NCBI GenBank assembly: GCA_025612375.1
Contig: JAAXKN010000031.1
Location: forward strand, 1-52,308
Source: Ignavibacteria bacterium
GTDB lineage: Bacteria > Bacteroidota > Ignavibacteria > Ignavibacteriales > SURF-24
Direction of reading: 5' to 3'
DNA: 52,308 bases
The notes under the pieces were generated by a model. That model searched no databases and was not told the origin of the DNA. It saw only the letters and a list, made by a program, of their open reading frames with translations. This document shows, piece after piece, positions 21,162 through 34,730 of this stretch (position 1 is the first letter of the stretch; every line of letters begins with the position of its first letter). Position numbers and translations under genes: made by a program.

Positions 21162-22211
21162 ATGGATAATGCTTCTTCGGGAGAGATCCCAAAAAGAAAA
21201 AAAGAGCATCTTGAGCTGTGCCTGACAGATAAAGTCGCCTTTAGGAAAAAAAGTAGCGGCCTCGGGAGCTATGAGTTTATCCATTACGCAATAACCGAGG
21301 TTGAACTAGAAAAACTCGACTTAAGCCGCGATTTCTTCGGCTTTAAGATTAACTATCCTTTTCTTATCTCCTGCATGACCGGGGGTACTGGCGAAGCTGA
21401 AAATATTAACGCTCAGCTTGCCGTTGCCGCCAGTGAACTTAATATTCCGATCGGCGTCGGCAGCCAGCGCCAGGCGCTCGAAAACAGCCGGTTTGCCGAA
21501 TCCTACAAAACTGTAAGAAAAAACGCGCCTAAGGTCCCGGTCTTAGCCAATATCGGTGCCGCCCAGGTTGTACAGATGAACTCCATTCATGACGTCCAGT
21601 ACCTGATAGACCTCGTTGAGGCACAGGCGCTCGTAATCCACCTTAACCCGCTGCAGGAACTGATGCAGAAAGACGGGGACACAAATTTTAAGGGGCTCTT
21701 GAAGAAAATTGAATGGATTGCTGGTGGCGTAAAAACACCCGTAATTGCAAAGGAAGTCGGTGCAGGCATAAGCCTGAAAGCTGCGGAAAAGCTCCTTCAG
21801 GCAGGCGTTAAGGCAATTGACGTTGCAGGAGCCGGCGGCACAAGCTGGGCCGGAGTGGAAATCCTTAGAAATAAAGAAGAGAAAAATTCAGACTTCTGGG
21901 ACTGGGGCCTTCCAACCTCGTACTGCATTAAGGAAGTTAGAAAATTAAAAAATGAGTTTGATTTCATCCTTATTGGCTCCGGCGGCATAAATTCCGGGAT
22001 GGACGCGGCTAAGGCTATCGCACTCGGGGCAGACATGACTGCCTCGGCCAGGACTGTCCTTCAGAAACTTAATAAAGATGGAATACAGGGCGTTAAAGAC
22101 CTCGTTAGAGACTGGTTTAATACCGTGAAAAATGTTATGTATCTTACCGGCTCTGAGAGTCCGGACGAGCTAAGGAACCAAAAACTGATTAATAAAGAGG
22201 AGTTGTATTGA
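21162..22211 (+). CDS. fni: Isopentenyl-diphosphate delta-isomerase, type II (FMN)
   Basis: 349 aa, standard length. FMN-barrel motifs: MTGGTGEAENINAQLA (about 75-90), GVGSQRQALE, the substrate/metal-site segment HLNPLQELMQKDGD, AGAGGTSWAGVE and GSGGINSGMDAAKAIALGAD. It interconverts IPP and DMAPP with reduced FMN and NAD(P)H. The gene overlaps the prenyl synthase gene by 4 bp, which indicates a two-step isoprenoid operon. ATG at 21162 has no clear ribosome site and lies directly behind a candidate promoter element. Confidence 0.96.
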   Translation: MDNASSGEIPKRKKEHLELCLTDKVAFRKKSSGLGSYEFIHYAITEVELEKLDLSRDFFGFKINYPFLISCMTGGTGEAENINAQLAVAASELNIPIGVGSQRQALENSRFAESYKTVRKNAPKVPVLANIGAAQVVQMNSIHDVQYLIDLVEAQALVIHLNPLQELMQKDGDTNFKGLLKKIEWIAGGVKTPVIAKEVGAGISLKAAEKLLQAGVKAIDVAGAGGTSWAGVEILRNKEEKNSDFWDWGLPTSYCIKEVRKLKNEFDFILIGSGGINSGMDAAKAIALGADMTASARTVLQKLNKDGIQGVKDLVRDWFNTVKNVMYLTGSESPDELRNQKLINKEELY

Positions 22212-23200
22212 AACTTAATCAAAATGAATTTGCCGGACTTTATGAAAAGCAGAGAATTAAAATTGAAGATAAAATTTCCAGGCTTTTGTTAAAACGTAAA
22301 CCTGAATCTCTTTATGCCCCGTGTGAATATATTATGCAGAGCGGAGGAAAAAGACTTAGACCGCTTCTGGTGCTCTTTTCAGCCCGCGCTGCCGGAGGCA
22401 GCTTTAACCAGGCCTATAATGCTGCCGTTGCCGTGGAACTGCTGCATAACTTTACACTCGTGCACGACGACATTATGGATAACGCCGACAAAAGACGCGG
22501 CAGGCTTACTACTCATAAAAAGTACGACCTCTCAACGGCTATTTTAACCGGCGATAACCTCCTTGCCGTGGCGTACCTGACTTTACTCAAGGACTGCAGG
22601 GAAAACGACAAGTCTGTCCTTGCTGCCTTTACTCAGGGCGTTATTGAGGTCTGCGAAGGGCAGAGCCTGGATAAGGATTTTGAGGTAAGAAAGGACGTAT
22701 CTTTAGATGAATACCTGGAGATGATAAATAAAAAAACGGCTGCTCTTCTTGAAGTCTGCTGCTCTGTAGGAGCCCAGATTGCAGGAGGGGATAAGAAAAC
22801 GGTTAAAGCCCTCTCTTTATACGGCCGCAGCCTCGGAACTGCTTTCCAGCTCCAGGACGACCTCCTCGATATTACGGCAAAGGAGACAGAATTCGGGAAA
22901 ATTATCGGCGGCGACCTGGTCGAAGGCAAAAAAACTTTCCTCTTTATTAAGGCTCTCGAAAAAGCAGGCGGAAAGGATAAGAAAATGCTCCTCGAGGTAA
23001 TAAAAAATAAGGGAATTGAGAAAAAAAGGGTCGGTGAATATAAAGAGATCTATTCAAGGCTAGGCGTCCTCCAGGAGACTCAAAAGGAGATTGAACACTA
23101 TACACAGCTCGCCTTAAAAAGCCTTAAGGCAGTTAAGGATGAAAAAGCCCGCGGCGCCCTGGAATGGCTGGCTGAATCTCTTATAAAGAGAAATAAATAA
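22208..23200 (+). CDS. Polyprenyl (probably farnesyl/geranylgeranyl) diphosphate synthase
   Basis: 330 aa, all-helical trans-prenyltransferase. First aspartate motif LVHDDIMDNADKRRG (near residue 90), second motif FQLQDDLLDI (near 220), plus GGKRLRP near residue 45. The fifth residue before the first motif is Phe; in archaeal-type enzymes an aromatic there blocks longer chains, so a C15-C20 product is likely. That is inference from position only. TTG start overlaps fni by 4 bp. It would supply precursors for quinones, carotenoids or undecaprenyl synthesis. Confidence 0.92.
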   Translation: MKLNQNEFAGLYEKQRIKIEDKISRLLLKRKPESLYAPCEYIMQSGGKRLRPLLVLFSARAAGGSFNQAYNAAVAVELLHNFTLVHDDIMDNADKRRGRLTTHKKYDLSTAILTGDNLLAVAYLTLLKDCRENDKSVLAAFTQGVIEVCEGQSLDKDFEVRKDVSLDEYLEMINKKTAALLEVCCSVGAQIAGGDKKTVKALSLYGRSLGTAFQLQDDLLDITAKETEFGKIIGGDLVEGKKTFLFIKALEKAGGKDKKMLLEVIKNKGIEKKRVGEYKEIYSRLGVLQETQKEIEHYTQLALKSLKAVKDEKARGALEWLAESLIKRNK

Positions 23201-23208
23201 ATTGATAG

Positions 23209-23228
23209 TTTCAGTATATTGACTGAAA
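23209..23228. repeat. 7-bp inverted repeat between isoprenoid and PTS genes
   Basis: TTTCAGT and ACTGAAA are exact inverses around a 6-base spacer, 8 bp after the prenyl synthase stop. It could be a weak terminator or an operator for the ptsH-ptsI pair downstream; no T-run follows. Confidence 0.45.
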
Positions 23229-23295
23229 TTTATAGTTAAACGGATTTTTAAAGATTATTTTAAATTATTTTAACATTAAAGGTTTCACTTATAAA

Positions 23296-23562
23296 ATGGT
23301 TGAAAGGAAAGTTGTAATTGTTAATAACGCAGGACTCCATACGCGCCCTGCGGCTACGATTGTAAAACTTGCGGCTAAGTACAAATCGGAATTTTTTATC
23401 AATAAGGACGGACTTAACATAAACGGCAAGAGCATTATTGGTGTTATGACACTGGCTGCCGAAAAAGGCTCTGAGCTCACACTGGTTTTTGAAGGGGAAG
23501 ATGAAAACGAAGCTGCCGAGGAAATATCTAATTACTTTAACAGGGGCTTTGACGAACTGTGA
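23296..23562 (+). CDS. ptsH: PTS phosphocarrier protein HPr
   Basis: 88 aa, normal HPr length. The phosphorylatable His15 lies in NNAGLHTRPA, and the regulatory Ser46 lies in INGKSIIGVM, both at canonical positions. His15 takes phosphate from Enzyme I; Ser46 is the target of HPr kinase where that enzyme exists, hinting at a regulatory role. ptsI overlaps the end by 4 bp (GTGA). No Enzyme II gene is present in the window. ATG at 23296. Confidence 0.96.
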   Translation: MVERKVVIVNNAGLHTRPAATIVKLAAKYKSEFFINKDGLNINGKSIIGVMTLAAEKGSELTLVFEGEDENEAAEEISNYFNRGFDEL

Positions 23563-25316
23563 AAAAGTTAAATGTTGCGGATTCAAATATATTAAATGGA
23601 ATTGCTGCCGCCCCCGGTATTGCAATTGCCCATGCCTACCTCTATGAGAAGGAAAAGCTTGAGATCAAGGACGGTATCGTAACAGATATTCCTGAGGCAA
23701 TTGAAAACCTCAAAGAGGCAATTGAAAGATCCAAGTACGAGCTCAGAAAGGTCTTTGATATAGCTATTGAAAAAATGGGGAAAAACAGGGCCGCCATTTT
23801 TGAAGCCCAGCTCATGATTTTAGACGACCCTGTTTTAATCGATCAGATTGTAAAAAGAATTGAATCTGAAAGAAGACTCCCTGAATTTATTGTAAACGAC
23901 GAGATTACCCGCTACCAGGAGCTCATGAACGCTTCTGACGAACTCTATATGAAGGAAAGAAGCCAGGATATTGAGGACATTAAAAACAGGATTATAAGGA
24001 ACCTCCAGAAAAAAAGGCTCCAGTCCAAGATCACAAACCAGGTTATTGTCGTTACTTCTTCTCTTACGCCGGCCGATACAATACTTTTCTCTAAAAGTAA
24101 CGTTAAAGGCTATATTACAGATTTCGGCGGTCTTACCTCGCACGCCGCAATTGTATCGCGTTCGCTTAAAATTCCGGCTGTAGTCGGAACACACGACGCA
24201 ACGGCAAAAATTAAAGACGGCGACCTGGTTATTATGGACGGCTTCCACGGAATTGTCATATTAAAGCCCGATGAGACGCAGCTTAACTTCTACAGGAATA
24301 AAATTGAAAAGCTCACACAGTTCGACAAGGAACTGGCTGGACTGAAAGATGAGCCCGCCGTTACTCTGGACGGCCATGAGATCATTATCCGCGGCAATAT
24401 TGATATTACAGACGAAGTGGACTATTTAATTGAAAACGGGGCCAAGGGAATAGGTCTACTAAGAACTGAACAGGTCTTTGGAGGCCTGGACACATTCCCG
24501 GGAGAAGACGAGCAGTACCTGGCTTACCACGAACTGGCCGAGAAAATTTATCCCGAGTATGTCATTATCCGTGCCTTTGACGTCGGGGGCGATAAGTTCC
24601 TCCCGCACGACGTCAAGGAGCCAAACCCCTTCTTAGGCTGGAGGGGGATAAGATTTCTCCTGGATAACCCCGAAATTTTCAAGACACAGATCAGGGCTGT
24701 CTTAAGGGCAAGCGTTCACAAGAACGTTAAACTCATGCTCCCAATGGTGGTCTCCCTGGAAGAGGTCAAAAGATCCAAGGCGCTTGTCAAAGAGTGCAAA
24801 GAGGAATTAAAAAAAGAACACCTGAAGTACGACTCCCATCTTCAGCTCGGAATTATGATAGAAGTGCCCTCGGCTGCCGTGCTGGCAAAGGAGTTTGCCG
24901 ACGAGGTGGATTTCTTAAGCATCGGCACAAACGACCTCATTCAGTTCGTCCTGGCGGTCGACCGTGGAAATGAAATTGTTTCCATGCTATACCAGGAGTT
25001 CCACCCGGCTGTTATAAGAACTATCAATCAGATAATTAAAAACGGCCAGAGAGGCCACGCGTTTGTAAGCATGTGCGGCGAAATGGCAGGCGACACAATT
25101 GCAATACCACTTCTTGTCGGAATGGGGCTGGATTCGCTTAGCGTTTCTCCTTCTTCAATCCCGTACATTAAAAGGATCATCAGGAGCCTCAGCTATCAAA
25201 AGGCGCAGGAGATGGCTAACGAATGCCTGGGCTACGGCTCGCTCCAGGAAGTATCGGAAAGAATTGAAAAGTTCTTCTCGGAGAATTTAATTGAGCAGAC
25301 CAATAACTTTTTGTAA
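23559..25316 (+). CDS. ptsI: PTS Enzyme I (phosphoenolpyruvate-protein phosphotransferase)
   Basis: 585 aa, full length. The phospho-accepting His195 lies in GGLTSHAAIVSRS. The PEP-binding barrel in the C-terminal half carries LLRTEQVFGG, SIGTNDLIQFVLAVDRGN and the catalytic Cys506 in MCGEMAGD. It moves phosphate from PEP to HPr. GTG start overlaps ptsH by 4 bp, so translation is coupled. With no Enzyme II nearby the pair may serve regulation or a distant permease. A GTAGGGGCG-type palindromic element lies downstream. Confidence 0.96.
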   Translation: MKKLNVADSNILNGIAAAPGIAIAHAYLYEKEKLEIKDGIVTDIPEAIENLKEAIERSKYELRKVFDIAIEKMGKNRAAIFEAQLMILDDPVLIDQIVKRIESERRLPEFIVNDEITRYQELMNASDELYMKERSQDIEDIKNRIIRNLQKKRLQSKITNQVIVVTSSLTPADTILFSKSNVKGYITDFGGLTSHAAIVSRSLKIPAVVGTHDATAKIKDGDLVIMDGFHGIVILKPDETQLNFYRNKIEKLTQFDKELAGLKDEPAVTLDGHEIIIRGNIDITDEVDYLIENGAKGIGLLRTEQVFGGLDTFPGEDEQYLAYHELAEKIYPEYVIIRAFDVGGDKFLPHDVKEPNPFLGWRGIRFLLDNPEIFKTQIRAVLRASVHKNVKLMLPMVVSLEEVKRSKALVKECKEELKKEHLKYDSHLQLGIMIEVPSAAVLAKEFADEVDFLSIGTNDLIQFVLAVDRGNEIVSMLYQEFHPAVIRTINQIIKNGQRGHAFVSMCGEMAGDTIAIPLLVGMGLDSLSVSPSSIPYIKRIIRSLSYQKAQEMANECLGYGSLQEVSERIEKFFSENLIEQTNNFL

Positions 25317-25545: not shown

Positions 25546-28377
25546 ATGAATGGCTTGCTTATAAATAAACTTAAATACTTAGTCCTGTTCCTGCTCATTC
25601 TGCCGGCTGCGGCACAGGCACAGTTTTATTTCTTCGGAAGGAATAAGGTCCAGTACGATAACTTCAACTGGAAGGTCCTCAAGACCGAACACTTCGATAT
25701 TTATTTTTATGACGACTTCGAGGAAATGGCCGAAATCGGTGCAAACTTTGCCGAGGAAGCCTTCGGCGACCTTAAGGTTAAATTCAATAACATTGTTACC
25801 GGCAGAATCCCCCTTATTTTCTATAACACACACATCCATTTCCAGCAGACAAATACAACCCCGGGCTTTATCCCCGAGGGCGTAGGAGGCTTTTTCGAGT
25901 TCTTAAAAGGAAGGGTCGTAATCCCTTACCTGGGCTCAATTGACGCATTCCGCCACGTTATCAGGCACGAACTAGTGCACGTATTTATGACCAATAAGAT
26001 CTACCGCGTCCTTACGGACCACAGGGTTACAACAGAACGATACCCTCCCTTGTGGTTTACTGAGGGTCTGGCTGAGTACTGGTCCACTACCTGGGATGAA
26101 CAGGCGGAAATGGTTATGCGTGACGCTGTAATTAACGACCAGTTCGTAGGCCTAAAGGATATCTATATGATTTTCGGCACCTTCCAGATGTACAAGGAAG
26201 GGCAGAACCTCCTGGAGTTTATTTCCGATACTTACGGTAAGGAGAAAATTGGCCTTCTCTTGGAAAACTTCTGGCAGTACGAAAACTTTAACGACCTAAT
26301 GGAATATGTAATAGGGAAGTCAATTGAGGAAATTGACCGTGACTGGAACTACTACCTGAAGCAGAGATACTTCCCGCTGATGAAAAATAAGATTCCGCCG
26401 GAAAATGGGGCGCAGAAATTAACCGACTTCGGATTTAATTTTTCTCCTTCGATTTATAATAAAAACGGCCAGCCCAATGTCTACTTTGTAGCCAACAGGG
26501 ACGGATATTCTTCAATCTATGAGATGCCGTTAAAAGATTTCGAGAAGGAAAAAGACCGCCCGAAACCTGATATTCTCATCCGCGGTGAAAAAGAAGAGGT
26601 CTTTGAGGCCTTCCACCTCCTGGATGCCTCGCTGAGCGTATCAAAAGACGGCATTATTACGTTTATTACAAAAACCGGAGGCACAGACGCCCTGCACTTC
26701 TACTCAATTGGTGAGGGGAAAATGCTCAGGGATTACCAGAATAATGAACTTATAAGCATGTCTTCCCCCAGATGGTCCTCCGACGGAAAGAAAGTTGTCT
26801 TCCAGTCCATCGACAGACGCGGGTACTCGGATATATTTGTCTATAACTACCAGGACGGCAGCCTCCAAAGAATTACTAACGACTACTATAGCGACATAAA
26901 CCCCGTTTTCGGCAAAAACGATACTACGGTCGTCTTTTCTTCCGACAGGAGTGAGGGGATCTTTAAGAAAAAATACAACATCTTCGAGTATAACTTAAAC
27001 GATCACTCCACGCGCTATCTTACATATTGCGACGCAAATAACAAAAGCCCGGAGTTCAGCCCCGATTTCTCCAGTCTCTATTTTACCTCCGACTATGACG
27101 GCATACAGAACCTCTGGAAACTGGAGATGAGGGACGGAAAACCCTCGGGCATGACGCAGATGACAAATTTTGTTACAAGCGTATTCGATTACTCCTTCAT
27201 CAATAATAATGAAGTTGTAGCCTCGGCATTTGAGAAGTTCTCTTTCCAGCTCTACAGAATTAAACTGAAGGCTCCCGCCGACTCGCTCTACAAATTCGTA
27301 GGTTTCGATTTTACGCTTACAGACGGCAAGTGGGTTGCTAAAAAGCTCGAGGGCGCCTCAATTAAGGAAAAACTTAAATATGAGAATAAGTACACACTCG
27401 ACTACGCGCAGAGCCAGGTTACTACAGACCCCGTCTACGGAACGCAGGGCGGAGCACTTTTTTCCTTAAGCGACCTTCTAAGCAACGATAACTATTATTT
27501 CCTCATCTATAACACGGCTGAGGTTCAAAGCGATATATTAAAAAGCTTTAACGTCGCTATATCCAGAATAAATATCGGGAACAGGACTAACTACGCCTAC
27601 GGGCTTTTTAACTACTCGGGCAGGCGCTACGACATAATGGATTCGGATGAATACTACTGGGAAAGAAGCTTCGGAGGGTATTTTACGCTTTTCTACCCCT
27701 TCAGCAAATTCTCCAGAATTGAAGCCAGCGTTTCACTGGCCAATTCAGATAAAGAGGTCATACAGAACGTCATAGAAAGAAAGGCGCTCCTGGCTACAAA
27801 TTCCATTTCATACGTGATGGATAACTCGCTCTGGGGGCCTACGGGACCTGTAGACGGCACACGCTTCCGCGTGCTCTTAAGCTTTACGAACGACATTAAA
27901 TACAGCAACGTAAACTACTATACGCTCATTTTTGACTTCAGAAACTATTTCCGCCTGAGCTATAAAAGCGCTCTTGCACTTAGAACCGCACTCCTTTATA
28001 ACGACGGACGGGAGGCAAGGCGCTACTTTATGGGAGGAAGCTGGGACTTAAGAGGCTGGCCCAGATGGTCCATACGCGGACAGAAGCTCTGGATCTCATC
28101 GCTTGAACTGAGATTCCCGTTAATTGACCTTTTTGCCGTAAGATTCCCATTTATCGACTTCGTTTTCCCGAACATCCGCGGCGCTCTTTTCTTCGATAGC
28201 GGCGGCGCCTGGGATAAAACATACCAGGAGACACTTGGAAGCCTTGGCGGCGGAATAAGAATTAACCTTTTTGACATCATAACACTCCGTTACGATATAG
28301 GTAAAAAGATAGAAAATAACTTTAAGAGCCTGCAGCCCAGACTTTTCTACCAGTTCTTTATTGGATGGGACTTCTAA
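25546..28377 (+). CDS. Metalloprotease / TolB-like propeller / Omp85-type barrel fusion protein
   Basis: About 943 aa. Signal peptide (to AAQAQ). Residues about 30-270 form a gluzincin-like peptidase domain with the zinc motif HELVH (His141, Glu142, His145) and a downstream Glu173 in WFTEGLAEYW. Residues about 290-560 have repeated PxWSxDGxxIxFxSxxxG-like blades of a PD40/TolB propeller (SPRWSSDGKKVVFQS). The last 300 residues look like an Omp85/BamA barrel: YFMGGSWDLRGW is the loop-6 RGF/Y-type motif, then LELRFPLID, FFDSGGAW and a final Phe. It should sit in the outer membrane with the other domains in the periplasm. ATG 25546 chosen. The next two genes overlap. Confidence 0.85.
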   Translation: MNGLLINKLKYLVLFLLILPAAAQAQFYFFGRNKVQYDNFNWKVLKTEHFDIYFYDDFEEMAEIGANFAEEAFGDLKVKFNNIVTGRIPLIFYNTHIHFQQTNTTPGFIPEGVGGFFEFLKGRVVIPYLGSIDAFRHVIRHELVHVFMTNKIYRVLTDHRVTTERYPPLWFTEGLAEYWSTTWDEQAEMVMRDAVINDQFVGLKDIYMIFGTFQMYKEGQNLLEFISDTYGKEKIGLLLENFWQYENFNDLMEYVIGKSIEEIDRDWNYYLKQRYFPLMKNKIPPENGAQKLTDFGFNFSPSIYNKNGQPNVYFVANRDGYSSIYEMPLKDFEKEKDRPKPDILIRGEKEEVFEAFHLLDASLSVSKDGIITFITKTGGTDALHFYSIGEGKMLRDYQNNELISMSSPRWSSDGKKVVFQSIDRRGYSDIFVYNYQDGSLQRITNDYYSDINPVFGKNDTTVVFSSDRSEGIFKKKYNIFEYNLNDHSTRYLTYCDANNKSPEFSPDFSSLYFTSDYDGIQNLWKLEMRDGKPSGMTQMTNFVTSVFDYSFINNNEVVASAFEKFSFQLYRIKLKAPADSLYKFVGFDFTLTDGKWVAKKLEGASIKEKLKYENKYTLDYAQSQVTTDPVYGTQGGALFSLSDLLSNDNYYFLIYNTAEVQSDILKSFNVAISRINIGNRTNYAYGLFNYSGRRYDIMDSDEYYWERSFGGYFTLFYPFSKFSRIEASVSLANSDKEVIQNVIERKALLATNSISYVMDNSLWGPTGPVDGTRFRVLLSFTNDIKYSNVNYYTLIFDFRNYFRLSYKSALALRTALLYNDGREARRYFMGGSWDLRGWPRWSIRGQKLWISSLELRFPLIDLFAVRFPFIDFVFPNIRGALFFDSGGAWDKTYQETLGSLGGGIRINLFDIITLRYDIGKKIENNFKSLQPRLFYQFFIGWDF

Positions 28378-29537
28378 TGAATACATGGAAACTGAAAATA
28401 CTTGGCCTTAATATGGCTTTTGCTATTCTTACCATGCTCCTGGGGGGCTGCTCAAGCAATATAGCAATTCCAAAGGCAAAGTTCGGAAGCCCTTCATATT
28501 CAATGTTCGGCGAAAGCTCCTCGCGCAGGTTTTTTGTTCCCGTAAGTATTGGCGACACATTAAACCTTAAGTGGGAAGGGGATATAAACGGGGGATTCAG
28601 CCCTACTTCGGTTACAGCATTCGGAAATTATATATTTGTTCCCGACTTGTCCGGGAGGATTTACGCTTTTGATGGGGATGAAGGAAAAGAAATCGGCTTC
28701 ATTAAATACAGGGGCTCCATTGTTCCCGCTCCCGTAATAAATGAGTTCGTGCTCACTTTCCCCCTTACGGGCTACAAGGATAATAACTCTGTTATCTATA
28801 ATTTTAATTTCCATTCGGGGCAGGAGGCGGCCAAATACGAAGTTGAGGGCAAGGTGGAAAGCGAACCCGTTAAGACAAAAGACGGGATTGTTTTCCTTAC
28901 CGAGCAGGGTAAGGCAATTAAATATGACAATGGGAATCAGAAAGTGTGGGAATACGATACAAAAGGGTTCATTCACTCCCAGGCCGCACTCTCTGGCGAC
29001 AGGCTCGTGTTCGGAAACGACAAGGGAAATGTTTATTCCATAAATGCCAATACAGGCTCCTTAAATTACGCGAAAAAAACAGGGAGCGGATTTGAAGGGG
29101 GCTTTACTGCCTCAGGCGACACGGTCTTTGCGGCAGATAACACTGGAGTCCTCTACTGCATGAATTTAACCTCGGGTGACGTCCTCTGGAAATACCCGAC
29201 GGGATACAAAATAAACGTCTTCCCGGTCTATGACGGCATATACGTCTACATCGGGAACCTGAGGGGCGAGATCTATAAATTTCTTGGAAGTTCGGGCAAA
29301 CTCCTCTGGAAAGTTTCCACAGATGGCGTGATAAACACTACACCCCTGCTTTTTAAAGATTTTCTGGTGCAGCCCGATCTGAATAAGAAGCTTTATTTCA
29401 TAAATGTTGAAAACGGACAGATAGCAAAAACAATGTACTTCGAGGGACGGGCCCGCCTCTCCCCGGTATATTACAATGAAACTCTTTATCTGGGTGTTGA
29501 TAACGGCAAGGTAATGGCTTATGAACGCGCTAAATAA
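28377..29537 (+). CDS. PQQ-type beta-propeller lipoprotein (BamB-like)
   Basis: About 386 aa. Lipoprotein signal with lipobox LLGGC, then about seven PQQ-like propeller repeats (for example GRIYAFDGDEGKEIG, GNVYSINANTGSL, GVLYCMNLTSGDVLWKYP, GEIYKFLGSSGKLLWKV). This is the architecture of BamB, the outer-membrane assembly scaffold, but quinoprotein-like propellers have other uses. Its ATG overlaps the last base of the upstream stop (TAATG), so it is translationally coupled to the Omp85-barrel fusion gene; a physical complex is likely but inferred. Confidence 0.85.
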   Translation: MNTWKLKILGLNMAFAILTMLLGGCSSNIAIPKAKFGSPSYSMFGESSSRRFFVPVSIGDTLNLKWEGDINGGFSPTSVTAFGNYIFVPDLSGRIYAFDGDEGKEIGFIKYRGSIVPAPVINEFVLTFPLTGYKDNNSVIYNFNFHSGQEAAKYEVEGKVESEPVKTKDGIVFLTEQGKAIKYDNGNQKVWEYDTKGFIHSQAALSGDRLVFGNDKGNVYSINANTGSLNYAKKTGSGFEGGFTASGDTVFAADNTGVLYCMNLTSGDVLWKYPTGYKINVFPVYDGIYVYIGNLRGEIYKFLGSSGKLLWKVSTDGVINTTPLLFKDFLVQPDLNKKLYFINVENGQIAKTMYFEGRARLSPVYYNETLYLGVDNGKVMAYERAK

Positions 29538-30258
29538 ATATTTTCTCCTTTTAATATTTTTCATCCCTTTTCTTGCGGCATCTGCCCAGAATAAGGAATG
29601 CACCTCCATACTGAATATTTCAACCGGGGATTCCTCGGCTGCAATATTCCTCAATGATTCATTTATCGGAAGCGGCCGCGCCTCACGCGAGGTGGAAAAG
29701 GGGAGATATAAGATATTTATTAAGGATGAAGCCCGCAAATGGGGGGCGCAGGAGATACATGATTCAATCTCTGTCACTGATTGCGGACTGACTAAAAACC
29801 TGGAATACAGCTTTAAGAAAACAGCTTTCCTTAGAACCAATCCCGACAATGCCGACGTTTACTACAGGGATTCTCTCCTTGGAAGTACTCCCTTATCTAT
29901 TCTAAGAACCCTCCCGCAGGTTGAGGTTAGAAAGACAAATTACAAGCCTGTATTCTTATCTTCAGATGAACTGGTACATAGCCCCGTAATAGACCTGGAG
30001 TTCCTGGGGAAAAAGCCGCAGGAAAGCTTCTTTAAGACAAATATGTTCAAGATCCTCCTCGGTACAGCCGTGGCCTTGGGGACAACGGCGGCTTATTATA
30101 AAATGAAGGCAAATAAATCCTTCGACCAGTATAACCAGTCCGGTGACAACACTCTTCTGGACAGGACAAACAGGTATGACCTCTACAGCGGCATAGCCTT
30201 CGGCGCCCTTCAGGTCAATTTCGGCGCCCTTATTTACTTCTTCCTCGTGGACGAGTAA
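29521..30258 (+). CDS. PEGA-domain exported membrane protein
   Basis: 245 aa. Signal peptide (LAASAQ at about 22), then two PEGA-like beta domains: residues about 30-90 (AIFLNDSFIGSG) and about 100-150 (LRTNPDNADVYYRDSLLGSTPL). Two hydrophobic helices follow (ILLGTAVALGTTAAYY and IAFGALQVNFGALIYFFLV). PEGA domains are found in envelope proteins and probably bind wall or partner proteins. The ATG overlaps the preceding gene by 17 bp, making it the third member of the operon with the protease-barrel fusion and the propeller lipoprotein. Confidence 0.78.
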   Translation: MNALNKYFLLLIFFIPFLAASAQNKECTSILNISTGDSSAAIFLNDSFIGSGRASREVEKGRYKIFIKDEARKWGAQEIHDSISVTDCGLTKNLEYSFKKTAFLRTNPDNADVYYRDSLLGSTPLSILRTLPQVEVRKTNYKPVFLSSDELVHSPVIDLEFLGKKPQESFFKTNMFKILLGTAVALGTTAAYYKMKANKSFDQYNQSGDNTLLDRTNRYDLYSGIAFGALQVNFGALIYFFLVDE

Positions 30259-30396: not shown

Positions 30397-32484
30397 ATGA
30401 AAACAAAATTTATACTAGTCCTTTCAGTAATATTCTTTTTCTCATGCTCTTTGTTTGCGCAGGAAAATCAGAAAAGAATTTATAAGACAACTGACGACGA
30501 TAACTCCAAATTTACCAATATCGGAAACCTTGGCCTTACGCTCTCAAATTTCGGTATGTACGGCAACGGATTCAGCGGAACGTGGCCCAAGCAGCCTTCC
30601 TGCGAATACCCCTTGGGAAGCGGCATCGAACACATTTTTGCCGGCGGCCTGTGGGTGGGAGGTTATTTAAGCAAGGATGCCTCGGGATCCGGAAAAAGCG
30701 GCCCCTTCGTTACTACTGGCGCCGTCGATAAGTCCTCAGTCTCTTCTCGCGGCGGCGGCTTTGAATACACCAATTTGCCGGGAAGCCGTATCGTTGAACG
30801 CTCCAGCCTTCTGACTTCCAAGAATTTCAGCCCTAAGGCAGTCTCTCATCAGGACTTTGTAATGGATTTTGTGGACACTAACCGCGTGCTTATCGGCTCA
30901 AACAATGAACCTATTCCCGATCATACACCTCTCGGCATCGCGGTCCACCAGGAATCTTACGTCTGGAACTACTCTTTTGCCAACTTCTTCGTTATTATGA
31001 ACTACTGGATTAAAAACGTTTCGGATAAATATATAGACAGCGTTTTTGTTGGCCTCTGGACAGATACCGTAGTTAGAAATACAATTGTTTCACCTCCCGG
31101 AACAAGCAACTTCTTTACTCACGGTGGTAACGGCTATGCAGATTCATTAAAAATAGGCTATGAATTTGACGCCGACGGCGACGTCGGCTTTACAGACAGC
31201 TACGTGGGCATTCAGTACCTGGGCGCTACGCCGGCAGTTAACAATGCAAACTTTGTAAGCTGGACCCATTCCAATACGAGCGACCTTATATTCTTTACCC
31301 CGATGGACGACATGCAAAGGTATGAAAAAATGAACGGCTTCTTTGCCGATGGCATTAAATTCCAGAATATTAACCAGGCAACACTCAGAGCCTCAAGCAA
31401 CCGTTCAATTTTAATGACTTCCGGCCCATTCTCAACTATTGCCCCAGGCGATTCTATTAATGTATCCTTTGCTATCGTGTGCGCAAAGAAATCGGGATAT
31501 GACCCCGCCGCTCTTGATACAAAAGAACAGAAGAAAAACCTCTTTACTAACGCCGGCTGGGCCCTGAGGGCTTATAACGGCGAGGATAAAAACGGCAACG
31601 GCCTCCTGGATCCGGGCGAGGACCTCGACGGCGACGGAAAAATAAAAAGATTTATTCTGCCTGCACCTCCAGCTTCACCTGAAGTTAAGGTTGTGCCTGA
31701 GGACAGGAAAGTAACAATTTACTGGGATAAACGCGCTGAAAACTCTGTGGATCCTATCTCTTCAAAGAAGGATTTTGAAGGCTACAGGCTCTACAGGACA
31801 AACGCCGGATACGACCTTACTGCAACACAGGACGTCCTGGGTTCGCTTGTTACACTGGCTGAATTCGACAGCCTTAATAACACTGTCGGCTATAATACAG
31901 GATTTTCAAAAGTAAGATTAAGCGATCCTGTAACTTTCCCGGGCGATACAAACAAATACTATTATAAATTTGAAATTGACAACCTCTTAAACGGCTGGCA
32001 GTATACATATTCTGTAACCGCCTTCGACAAAGGGGACCCGGTAAATAACCTCGAAAGCCTGGAGTCCAGTGTGCTCGCTTCTTCAAAGCGCGTTATACCC
32101 GGCACTCCTGCTACTTCGGACGAGAAGGCCCAGGTTGGCGTTTATCCGAATCCTTATTACGGAAACGCTTACTGGGACGGCAATTCTGAAAGGTTGAGGA
32201 AAATTTACTTCTATAATCTTCCGGCTCAATGCGAAATTACAATTTATACACTTGCCGGGGATATTGTTAAAAGAATACAGCATGACCAAAACAGTAACGG
32301 AAGCGACTTGAGATGGTTTGAAACTTATGCCAAGGACCAGACACAGATTATGGCAGGCGGCGAACACGCATGGGATATTATCAGCGACAACGACCAGGCA
32401 ATCGCAAGCGGACTCTATCTCTTTACGGTTAAGGATTCCCAGACCGGCGAAATTAAAAAAGGGAAATTCCTGATCGTTAAATAA
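30397..32484 (+). CDS. Large exported protein with EF-hand-like loops and C-terminal sorting-like domain
   Basis: 695 aa. Signal peptide (MKTKFILVL ... LFAQ). The body contains conserved blocks such as HIFAGGLWVGGY, followed by a double calcium-loop segment, DKNGNGLLDPGE (residues 397-408) and DLDGDGK, then a fibronectin-like region. The last about 90 residues begin VYPNPYYGNA and end ASGLYLFTVKD...KGKFLIVK, the shape of a T9SS type A sorting domain. It is therefore probably secreted through T9SS. No enzymatic motif recognised. It opens a same-strand run that includes another sorting-domain protein and a PorV-like barrel. Confidence 0.78.
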   Translation: MKTKFILVLSVIFFFSCSLFAQENQKRIYKTTDDDNSKFTNIGNLGLTLSNFGMYGNGFSGTWPKQPSCEYPLGSGIEHIFAGGLWVGGYLSKDASGSGKSGPFVTTGAVDKSSVSSRGGGFEYTNLPGSRIVERSSLLTSKNFSPKAVSHQDFVMDFVDTNRVLIGSNNEPIPDHTPLGIAVHQESYVWNYSFANFFVIMNYWIKNVSDKYIDSVFVGLWTDTVVRNTIVSPPGTSNFFTHGGNGYADSLKIGYEFDADGDVGFTDSYVGIQYLGATPAVNNANFVSWTHSNTSDLIFFTPMDDMQRYEKMNGFFADGIKFQNINQATLRASSNRSILMTSGPFSTIAPGDSINVSFAIVCAKKSGYDPAALDTKEQKKNLFTNAGWALRAYNGEDKNGNGLLDPGEDLDGDGKIKRFILPAPPASPEVKVVPEDRKVTIYWDKRAENSVDPISSKKDFEGYRLYRTNAGYDLTATQDVLGSLVTLAEFDSLNNTVGYNTGFSKVRLSDPVTFPGDTNKYYYKFEIDNLLNGWQYTYSVTAFDKGDPVNNLESLESSVLASSKRVIPGTPATSDEKAQVGVYPNPYYGNAYWDGNSERLRKIYFYNLPAQCEITIYTLAGDIVKRIQHDQNSNGSDLRWFETYAKDQTQIMAGGEHAWDIISDNDQAIASGLYLFTVKDSQTGEIKKGKFLIVK

Positions 32485-32511
32485 ATGCTTATTCCCTGAA
32501 TCCAGTTTTTC

Positions 32512-32540
32512 TCCGGGCGTTTTTCCCGGATACTTTGTTT
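32512..32540 (+). terminator. Weak intrinsic terminator
   Basis: TCCGGG and CCCGGA form a 6-bp stem around CGTTTTT, followed by a T-rich stretch (ACTTTGTTTT). It lies between the 30397 gene and the next exported-protein gene. Confidence 0.5.
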
Positions 32541-32567
32541 TAGTTAATAACATATTATGAGGCCTAT

Positions 32568-34730
32568 ATGAAACTTAGATACTTATTGATTTCTCTGATT
32601 CTGTTGAGCGCTTCTTCATTTGCGCAGAAAGTATATCCCTTGAAGACCATTAAGGATATTCAGTACCGTACAGATGAAGACCTCAAAGCAGGTAAACAAT
32701 CCCCGGCTATTACTGATACCGTGAGGATTCGTGCAGTTGCACTGCACAGTACGCTGAAGGATCCCTCCAGCTCGTCTTCACAGCCGATGATTTTCTGCAG
32801 CAGCACAAACAAATATGTGCTTTTCGTGCAGGATTCCAGCAGCGAATGGGCAGGTCTTCAGGTTTACCAGGAAGACCAGAATAGCGGAACAAACCTCTGG
32901 ACGGTTGACTCGGCCCAGTATGTTGAGTTTACAGGATATGCTAAGGATTATTTCACTTCAACTGAATTCGTCCTTATTTCCAAGCCAGTTCCGGTTCCTA
33001 TAAACACACTTGATCAGGCTCCGAACAGGCCTGCTGCCAAAGTGATGAAGATAAGTGACTTTACAAATGCCGGCGTTATGGATCCCCTGGCTGAAAAGTA
33101 CGAGGGTATGTACGTTGAATTCCGTAATGTCAGGGTAAGCGACAGAAATACCAGCGACGGATCTTTTAAGATAAATGACGAAAATGGAAATCAGATCTAT
33201 ATGTATGCCCAGAACGGGTATAATGCTATAGGCGGATATAAATTTAAGGACTATAGCGGTTACGTCCTGCCGCAGAATAACGCAAAACTTAACTATATAA
33301 GAGGCGTTATTCAGGACCGCTGGAGCGGAACAATTACAGGTTATACAATTACTCCTTTATACCCGAACGACATGGAAATCGGTTCACAGCCTCCTGCAAT
33401 CTCTAAACTTAAAAGAAATACTGACCTTGTCAGCCCTGGCCAATCTGTAGACCTTACTGCTACAATTCTCCCGCAGAAAGGCGGCAGCATAAAGGATGCA
33501 AAAATTTATTACAGGGTAAACGGCGGCAGCTACAGCAATGTTCCAATGACAAAGACTGCAGATACCACAATATTCAAAGCAACCGTTCCTGCAATACAAA
33601 AAGATTCAGCTTTAGTAGATTTCTATGTATGGGCTCAGGATAACGATGACCAGGTATCCTACTTCCCGGCAGATACCGGAAGAAGCAACTACCTCTATAT
33701 GGTTCTTAACAGGCCTGTTACAATCAGGGATGTACAGTACAATCCGCTTGGCGGCGGCTTCAGCCCTTATTCAGGCTATAAAGTTTCTCTTACGGGCGTA
33801 GTTACTGCCGATACATCTGATATCCCGGGAGACCAGAAAACTTATCTTGAACTGCAGAGAATTTTCATGCAGGATGGTTCAACACCCTGGAGCGGAATCT
33901 GGGTCTACGGAATTAAGGCTCTTCAGGTAATAACAGGTAATGATACCGTGGCAGTAAAAAGAGGAGACAAGATTACTGTAAGCGGAACCATCATTGAAGA
34001 TTATAACCTGACTAGACTCGACTCTATTACATCTATTACTATCAGCTCTTCAAATAACCCCGTTCCTCAGCCGGTTGAACTTTTAACAAGCGATATAGCA
34101 ACCAAAACTAACGGAACGGTTGATGCCGAAAAATATGAAGGCATGCTTGTTAAATATAAAAACCTTACTGTCCTAAAAGATAATGCCGACGACAATACAT
34201 CATATAATGATGCTGAAATGCTCGTGGCTGATGAATCAGGCGTGGGTACAAGAGTTAAACTTGGCGATGGTGCCGGTACATACCATAACGGTTGGGACGC
34301 TACTGTTGTTACTTATCCTAACTGGACAAAAGTTGCAAAGGGCGACAAGTTCAGCAGCATAACCGGTGTCCTCATCTACACGGGCGGTAACTATAAGATT
34401 GTCCCGAGAAAAAATGACGACTACCAGGGCTACACAACAGGAGTTGAATCTGTAAGCAGCCAGCCTAAGAGCTTTGGCTTAAAGCAGAACTACCCGAACC
34501 CGTTCAACCCTTCTACAACAATTGAATACTCTGTTCCAAAGGGTGGAATGGTTACCCTTAAGATCTTTAACCTGATGGGCCAGGAAGTTAAAACTCTGGT
34601 TAATCAGTTCCAGAACGGCGGCACTTATAAGGCAACCTTTGATGCTTCAAATATGCCTTCAGGAATTTATTTCTACCAGTTAAATTCAGGCAGCATGAAT
34701 TCCGTAAAGAAAATGCTTCTCCTGAAGTAA
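32568..34730 (+). CDS. T9SS-secreted protein with OB-fold-like repeats
   Basis: 720 aa. Signal peptide (SSFAQ). Two regions (about 15-235 and about 380-600) share the pattern TIKDIQY... / TIRDVQY... followed by D(T/K)VRIRAV- or VSLTGVV-type strands, like the OB-fold modules of secreted DUF5689/YhcR-type proteins. A beta-sandwich linker lies between (about 270-380). The C-terminus is a typical T9SS type A sorting domain starting NYPNPFNPS and ending KKMLLLK. Substrate unknown; OB folds may bind polysaccharide or nucleic acid. A GAGG ribosome site precedes ATG 32568. Confidence 0.82.
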   Translation: MKLRYLLISLILLSASSFAQKVYPLKTIKDIQYRTDEDLKAGKQSPAITDTVRIRAVALHSTLKDPSSSSSQPMIFCSSTNKYVLFVQDSSSEWAGLQVYQEDQNSGTNLWTVDSAQYVEFTGYAKDYFTSTEFVLISKPVPVPINTLDQAPNRPAAKVMKISDFTNAGVMDPLAEKYEGMYVEFRNVRVSDRNTSDGSFKINDENGNQIYMYAQNGYNAIGGYKFKDYSGYVLPQNNAKLNYIRGVIQDRWSGTITGYTITPLYPNDMEIGSQPPAISKLKRNTDLVSPGQSVDLTATILPQKGGSIKDAKIYYRVNGGSYSNVPMTKTADTTIFKATVPAIQKDSALVDFYVWAQDNDDQVSYFPADTGRSNYLYMVLNRPVTIRDVQYNPLGGGFSPYSGYKVSLTGVVTADTSDIPGDQKTYLELQRIFMQDGSTPWSGIWVYGIKALQVITGNDTVAVKRGDKITVSGTIIEDYNLTRLDSITSITISSSNNPVPQPVELLTSDIATKTNGTVDAEKYEGMLVKYKNLTVLKDNADDNTSYNDAEMLVADESGVGTRVKLGDGAGTYHNGWDATVVTYPNWTKVAKGDKFSSITGVLIYTGGNYKIVPRKNDDYQGYTTGVESVSSQPKSFGLKQNYPNPFNPSTTIEYSVPKGGMVTLKIFNLMGQEVKTLVNQFQNGGTYKATFDASNMPSGIYFYQLNSGSMNSVKKMLLLK

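Follow-up and report, generated by a model that had tools for sequence, protein, structure and literature searches.

Three overlapping genes in the genome of an Ignavibacteria bacterium could be used to examine whether there is a direct coupling between proteolysis and insertion or export at the outer membrane. They lie on the forward strand of the window (the whole stretch of 52,308 nt that was analyzed, which belongs to contig C31 in an assembly of 5.23 Mb). In the ORF list they span 25546-28377, 28365-29537 and 29521-30258, with overlaps of 13 and 17 nt, and these positions were confirmed in the window. The first gene encodes a POTRA-less Omp85 protein of 943 aa, counted from an ATG with an alternative TTG start three bases upstream, which consists of a signal peptide-like N-terminus, a clan-MA peptidase domain, a TolB-like propeller and a 16-stranded barrel. 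The second and third encode a PQQ-type propeller lipoprotein of 390 aa and a PEGA-domain protein of 245 aa. The nearest public relative found was a contig from an Ignavibacteria metagenome bin, whose main protein was 90% identical.

Genes for an FMN-dependent isomerase-like protein, a polyprenyl synthetase and a PEP-phosphotransferase are located upstream (21162-25316), and two genes for long secreted proteins are located downstream (30397-34730). The second of these secreted proteins carries a T9SS C-terminal sorting domain (45.1 bits, cut-off 27), while the match of the first to a T9SS sorting domain was below threshold.

The peptidase domain

Residues 26-284 (25621-26397, forward strand) matched Peptidase_MA_2 with 36.1 bits (cut-off 32.4) when the whole protein was scanned with Pfam. 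The domain contains HELVH at residues 141-145 and a candidate third ligand, E173, within WFTEG. H141, E142, H145 and E173 were unchanged in all 80 sequences of an alignment that comprised the window and 79 loci, taken from the best 80 of 338 public loci. Outside the class, HE(L/M)VH was present in 19 of 19 loci, and the third-ligand Glu could be read in 16 of them, the script having printed an earlier match in the other three.

Modelled alone, the domain reached a pLDDT of 79.7 and a pTM of 0.80. Foldseek returned 4ar8 as its best match (E 7.5e-4), the only chain at E<=0.001. VIA-align matched the model to the M30 peptidase lugdulysin (7bb9; Z 16.2, rmsd 3.9, 236 residues), followed by M9 collagenases at about Z 14 and M1 aminopeptidases at about Z 13, and is stronger support for the predicted peptidase fold than Foldseek. 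The marks by which clan MA is recognized, namely its fold and HExxH with a Glu ligand further downstream, were all found, and the domain is predicted to bind zinc and to be proteolytic.

A segment next to the active site (residues 99-124) had low confidence in the AlphaFold2 model, yet many of its residues hardly vary, and a mobile active-site loop is one possibility. The slightly longer stretch of residues 99-127 ahead of HELVH, PEGVGGFFEFLKGRVVIP, is nearly invariant and likewise of low confidence in the model; by position it could match the edge strand with which M1 peptidases bind their substrates. The low confidence beside the active site would suit a catalytically dead scaffold, in which the MA domain merely binds proteins. 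With H141, E142, H145 and E173 unchanged throughout the alignment, we regard such a scaffold as very improbable.

The propeller and the barrel

The TolB-like propeller covers about residues 297-578 (26434-27279, forward strand). PD40 was matched with 38.2 bits (cut-off 20.9) in the whole-protein Pfam scan, and VIA-align superposed the modelled propeller on the TolB crystal structure 1crz with Z 25.9 and an rmsd of 2.2 over 242 residues. The resemblance does not extend to identity with TolB, which was excluded by a TIGR02800 score of 80.1 bits against an equivalog cut-off of 343.15; NCBIfam gave only far sub-threshold TolB matches on this protein.

The Omp85 barrel (27349-28374, forward strand) was not listed as PF01103 in the Pfam scan of the whole window protein. 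When the last 342 residues were scanned alone, PF01103 was matched with 47.8 bits (cut-off 24) over profile positions 18-325 of 325. Among 19 relatives scanned as whole proteins, MA_2 was detected in 19, PD40 in 18 and Omp85 in 10. In a set of 36 barrel fragments that included three from outside the class, PF01103 matched 35 at E<=0.001. Fragment scanning thus recovered a barrel that whole-protein scans had overlooked in 9 of the 19 members and in the window protein. POTRA was absent from the Pfam scan of the window protein.

The AlphaFold2 model of the full protein, built with 80 sequences, had a mean pLDDT of 82.5 and a pTM of 0.71, at which the orientation of the domains to each other is not established. 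The modelled C-terminal barrel has 16 strands between residues 616 and 941. LRGW (835-838) lies between strand 11 (809-822) and strand 12 (847-866), as in loop L6 of BamA, and FFDSG (882-886) lies in strand 13 and presumably represents the FxDxG motif of Omp85 proteins. TolB and BamA/TamA structures dominated the Foldseek matches of the whole model, and VIA-align matched the barrel to BamA (8xnb; Z 23.7, rmsd 3.5, 306 residues). Searching PDB sequences with a profile of the barrel brought up a single match below E 0.001 (9ccg, 1.1e-4).

The L6 motif was well conserved in the 80-row alignment. Position 835 was L in 78 sequences and I in two, R836 was found in 80 of 80 and G837 in 79 of 80, and position 838 was W in 65, Y in 13 and F in two. 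Among the 19 loci outside the class, 15 had [LIV]RG[FY], two LRGH and one ARGF, and the remaining one had none by the pattern used. A PF01103 score above the curated cut-off, together with 16 strands and an RGF/Y-type motif in the loop between strands 11 and 12, places the protein in the Omp85 superfamily. The fusion of a HELVH protease, a TolB-like propeller and an Omp85 barrel with LRGW, as proposed by a sequence-only reading of this DNA, was borne out by Pfam, the AlphaFold2 model and residue conservation. That reading was to be given up if a structure showed no Omp85 barrel; the model shows one, with 16 strands, and both Foldseek and VIA-align recognized it.

Mean conservation was 0.73 in the peptidase, 0.73 in the barrel, 0.55 in the propeller and 0.34 in the linker. 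Loop L6 has 24 residues with a conservation of 0.87, and the other predicted extracellular loops have 3-11 residues. The invariant active-site residues, and a peptidase domain as well conserved as the barrel, would agree with a quality-control or sensing protease for which the barrel is a mere anchor, the propellers and the PEGA protein feeding or regulating a peptidase that clears misfolded envelope proteins. A mere anchor would not need the Omp85 L6 motif and the FxDxG of strand 13, both of which the barrel keeps, and we consider this explanation unlikely.

The partner proteins

The product of the second gene (28365-29537, forward strand) matched PQQ_2 (PF13360) with 79.9 bits (cut-off 27.6). 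Its lipobox Cys, residue 29, was invariant in 19 of 19 aligned lipoprotein sequences. The protein had been called BamB-like, which holds for the fold; membership of the BamB family was rejected, as TIGR03300 scored 100.5 bits against an equivalog cut-off of 285.2. A first automatic pattern found the lipobox in 48 of 79 lipoprotein ORFs and a looser script pattern in 71 of 79, and in the remaining eight a Cys after a hydrophobic stretch was recognized by eye.

An acidic patch after the lipobox Cys is a surface-export signal of lipoproteins in some Bacteroidota. Two or more acidic residues within the five positions after the Cys were found in none of the 71 ORFs, although this rule was worked out in other Bacteroidota. 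Because the patch is lacking, the lipoproteins more likely face the periplasm. A case on the other side is BamI of the Bacteroides BAM complex, likewise a propeller lipoprotein, which is described as lying on the surface in the relevant passages of PMC12611786 and PMC12578637.

The product of the third gene (29521-30258, forward strand) matched PEGA (PF08308) with 23.5 bits (cut-off 20.8). Alignment and hydropathy showed a conserved C-terminal region that is hydrophobic and hairpin-like. Within the C-terminal half of 67 PEGA ORFs, a hydropathy script called two hydrophobic segments in 34, one in 27, none in four and three in two. The protein is probably anchored in the inner membrane by a C-terminal hydrophobic hairpin.

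Conservation of the gene trio

The gene order was compared in the best 80 of the 338 public loci, a selection that is biased to close relatives. The lipoprotein gene came next after the Omp85 gene in 79 of these 80 loci, and the contig of the 80th ended two bases past the Omp85 gene. Alignment A2 omitted locus L094, where the contig stops together with the gene. A PEGA gene was present in 67 of the 68 loci with room for it, one of the matches (L073) being weak (E 5.5e-4). In twelve further loci no more than 1,260 bases remained, and L104, with 4,940 bases behind its Omp85 gene, was the only locus with room that gave no PEGA match. The profiles used to search for the two partners had themselves been derived from these 80 loci. 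Outside the class, 18 of 19 loci gave a lipoprotein match (none in L150), and 18 of 19 gave a PEGA match (none in L151, where the contig ends).

When 100 loci were clustered by BLAST, 97 had the lipoprotein and 83 the PEGA protein. The upstream neighbors were partly kept, with the PEP-phosphotransferase family in 75 loci, the polyprenyl synthetase in 59 and the FMN-dependent isomerase-like protein in 50, while the downstream neighbors varied.

The Omp85 family was also found in 60 of 247 sampled genomes of the phylum (best E<=1e-130). Among the matches listed, which reach to near E 4e-4, a PEGA-hairpin profile that extends into the C-terminal region of the PEGA protein matched 56 of the 60 genomes with this Omp85 protein and 0 of the 187 without it. 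The four carriers without a listed match were G010, G043, G097 and G188, and in two of the 56 (G184 and G247) the match and the Omp85 gene were on different contigs. The counts of 60, 56 and 187 come from hand lists, and the genomes are related, so that they do not represent 60 independent events.

Conservation of both residues and gene order excludes chance, and the trio is a real conserved gene unit that recurs in many members of the phylum. The sequence-only reading had described two overlapping genes for a PQQ-propeller lipoprotein and a PEGA protein, which agrees with the above-cut-off matches to PF13360 and PF08308 and the 13- and 17-nt overlaps. It would have been refuted by a lack of co-occurrence in relatives; the three genes do co-occur there, as seen in gene order and in the phylum genome sample.

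A second family in the same genome

The same genome encodes a longer relative of the main protein, of 1,096 aa, with MA_2 and PD40 (L137:19-3306, reverse strand). Phylogenetic analysis separated 33 sequences of the trio Omp85 family from 18 of this second family (family B) by one branch with an SH-aLRT of 100. No lipoprotein or PEGA neighbor was found in the 21 family B loci scanned. Since it has no partner neighbors and splits off on a fully supported branch, family B is a separate family and was rejected as part of the trio system.

Of 18 loci, 15 have an RNase R-like gene ahead of family B, and 13 have a gene for a very large protein there. Pfam confirmed RNase R in the single locus that was scanned for it, and of three large proteins tested, one gave a match just under the cut-off to DUF748, which we take to be AsmA-like. 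The arrangement in the genome studied here (L137:19-9958, contig C40) is of this kind, the 1,096-aa relative coming after RNase R and a protein of 1,504 aa whose DUF748 match is below threshold. This arrangement may indicate that family B has an AsmA/TamB-like partner.

Proposed function of the trio

Omp85 proteins insert or pass polypeptides at the outer membrane, and the known ones use POTRA arms. For the trio, the simplest reading is an outer-membrane platform that would face the periplasm and handle client proteins with built-in proteolysis, because L6 is kept, the POTRA domains are replaced by peptidase and propeller, one partner is a propeller with a lipobox, and the PEGA protein is probably held in a membrane. 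We give this reading about an even chance. The Omp85-type barrel would handle client polypeptides at the outer membrane, while the N-terminal peptidase and propeller, on the periplasmic side, would hold the clients, trim them or dispose of them. The propeller would occupy the place of the POTRA domains of BamA and TamA. Bound near the barrel, the lipoprotein would supply another propeller, this one membrane-anchored. The link from the complex to the inner membrane or the cell wall would be made by the PEGA protein, whose C-terminal hairpin probably holds it in the inner membrane.

The Omp85 score, the 16-stranded fold and LRGW in the loop equivalent to L6 of BamA speak for this platform, as do the clan-MA fold with its invariant HExxH and Glu. 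The conserved gene order and the co-occurrence of PEGA in genomes are also consistent with it, and so are the peptidase and barrel as the best-conserved parts, the short extracellular loops besides L6, and the lipoproteins without an acidic patch. On the other side, POTRA, the client-binding part of known Omp85 machines, is missing, the surface position of BamI sets a different precedent for a propeller lipoprotein, a pair of hydrophobic segments in the C-terminal half was called for just 34 of the 67 PEGA ORFs, and the model does not fix the domain orientation.

PlpD, a type Vd secretion protein, has a patatin lipase domain and a POTRA. By analogy with it, the barrel of the trio could export its own peptidase and propeller to the surface, where they would digest external protein or mature surface proteins. 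An enzyme domain does precede a 16-stranded Omp85 barrel in one chain, and proteins with T9SS sorting tails are encoded right downstream. However, the POTRA of PlpD has no counterpart here, the propeller would need to be threaded unfolded, and a partner lipobox without an acidic patch and a partner with a hydrophobic C-terminus fit the periplasm better. Self-display of this kind, an option that the 2014 survey also raised in its main text for the 'Metallo' Omp85 group (PMC4104836), is improbable in our view.

The periplasm-facing platform could also be extended to a distinct trans-envelope machine of a Bacteroidota-Ignavibacteria group. It would consist of a POTRA-less Omp85 insertase or translocon with a propeller for the POTRA arm, a gluzincin peptidase that processes each client, and a PEGA bridge to the inner membrane. 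We consider this extension somewhat unlikely. The family is widespread, has peptidase and propeller instead of POTRA, and consistently lies beside the same two envelope genes.

Comparison with known systems

The trio had been likened to a miniature Bam/Tam machine, with surface maturation or quality control as its possible role. The analogy to Bam/Tam is sound, but membership of BAM, TAM or FhaC was rejected: the Omp85 protein has no POTRA, the lipoprotein scores under the BamB cut-off, and separate POTRA proteins are encoded elsewhere in the genome (10 POTRA matches, none on the contig of the window). The trio was also set aside as part of the described Bacteroidota BAM complexes, since the relevant passages of two reports of 2025 (PMC12611786 and PMC12578637) contain no protein of this kind. 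The relevant passages of a 2026 BAM review (PMC13067283) contain none either. No paper on the trio was found in searches of open-licence literature, which leaves out most subscription papers.

The putative peptidase shares its fold and HExxH with a downstream Glu with the clan MA gluzincins of families M1, M9 and M30, but differs from them in being fused to an outer-membrane barrel. The trio lipoprotein is a PQQ-type propeller lipoprotein like BamB (YfgL), but it is far under the BamB cut-off, and it is marked by its invariable position next to this Omp85 gene and not by BamA binding. The main protein shares with BamA and TamA the 16-stranded barrel and an L6 motif of the RGF/Y type in the same loop, while their POTRA domains are replaced by peptidase and propeller. 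An enzyme domain followed by a 16-stranded Omp85 barrel is also the plan of PlpD, in which patatin lipase and POTRA stand where the trio protein has metallopeptidase and propeller.

The main text of the survey by Heinz and Lithgow (2014; PMC4104836) describes two related groups. The 'Metallo' Omp85 subfamily combines an enzyme domain with an Omp85 barrel, as here, and was suggested to act in periplasmic quality control or surface display. It is defined by PF00149, which was absent from the Pfam matches of our protein (whole protein to E 0.1, N-terminal fragment to E 10). Compared by that main-text description, the closest published kind is the WD40-Omp85 subfamily, in which a TolB-like propeller lies N-terminal to an Omp85 barrel without POTRA. 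The main protein has the same propeller and POTRA-less barrel. It differs in its additional peptidase domain and partner genes, neither of which the main text names for the WD40-Omp85 group. The main protein of the trio thus belongs to a known protein family, as a variant that has been little studied.
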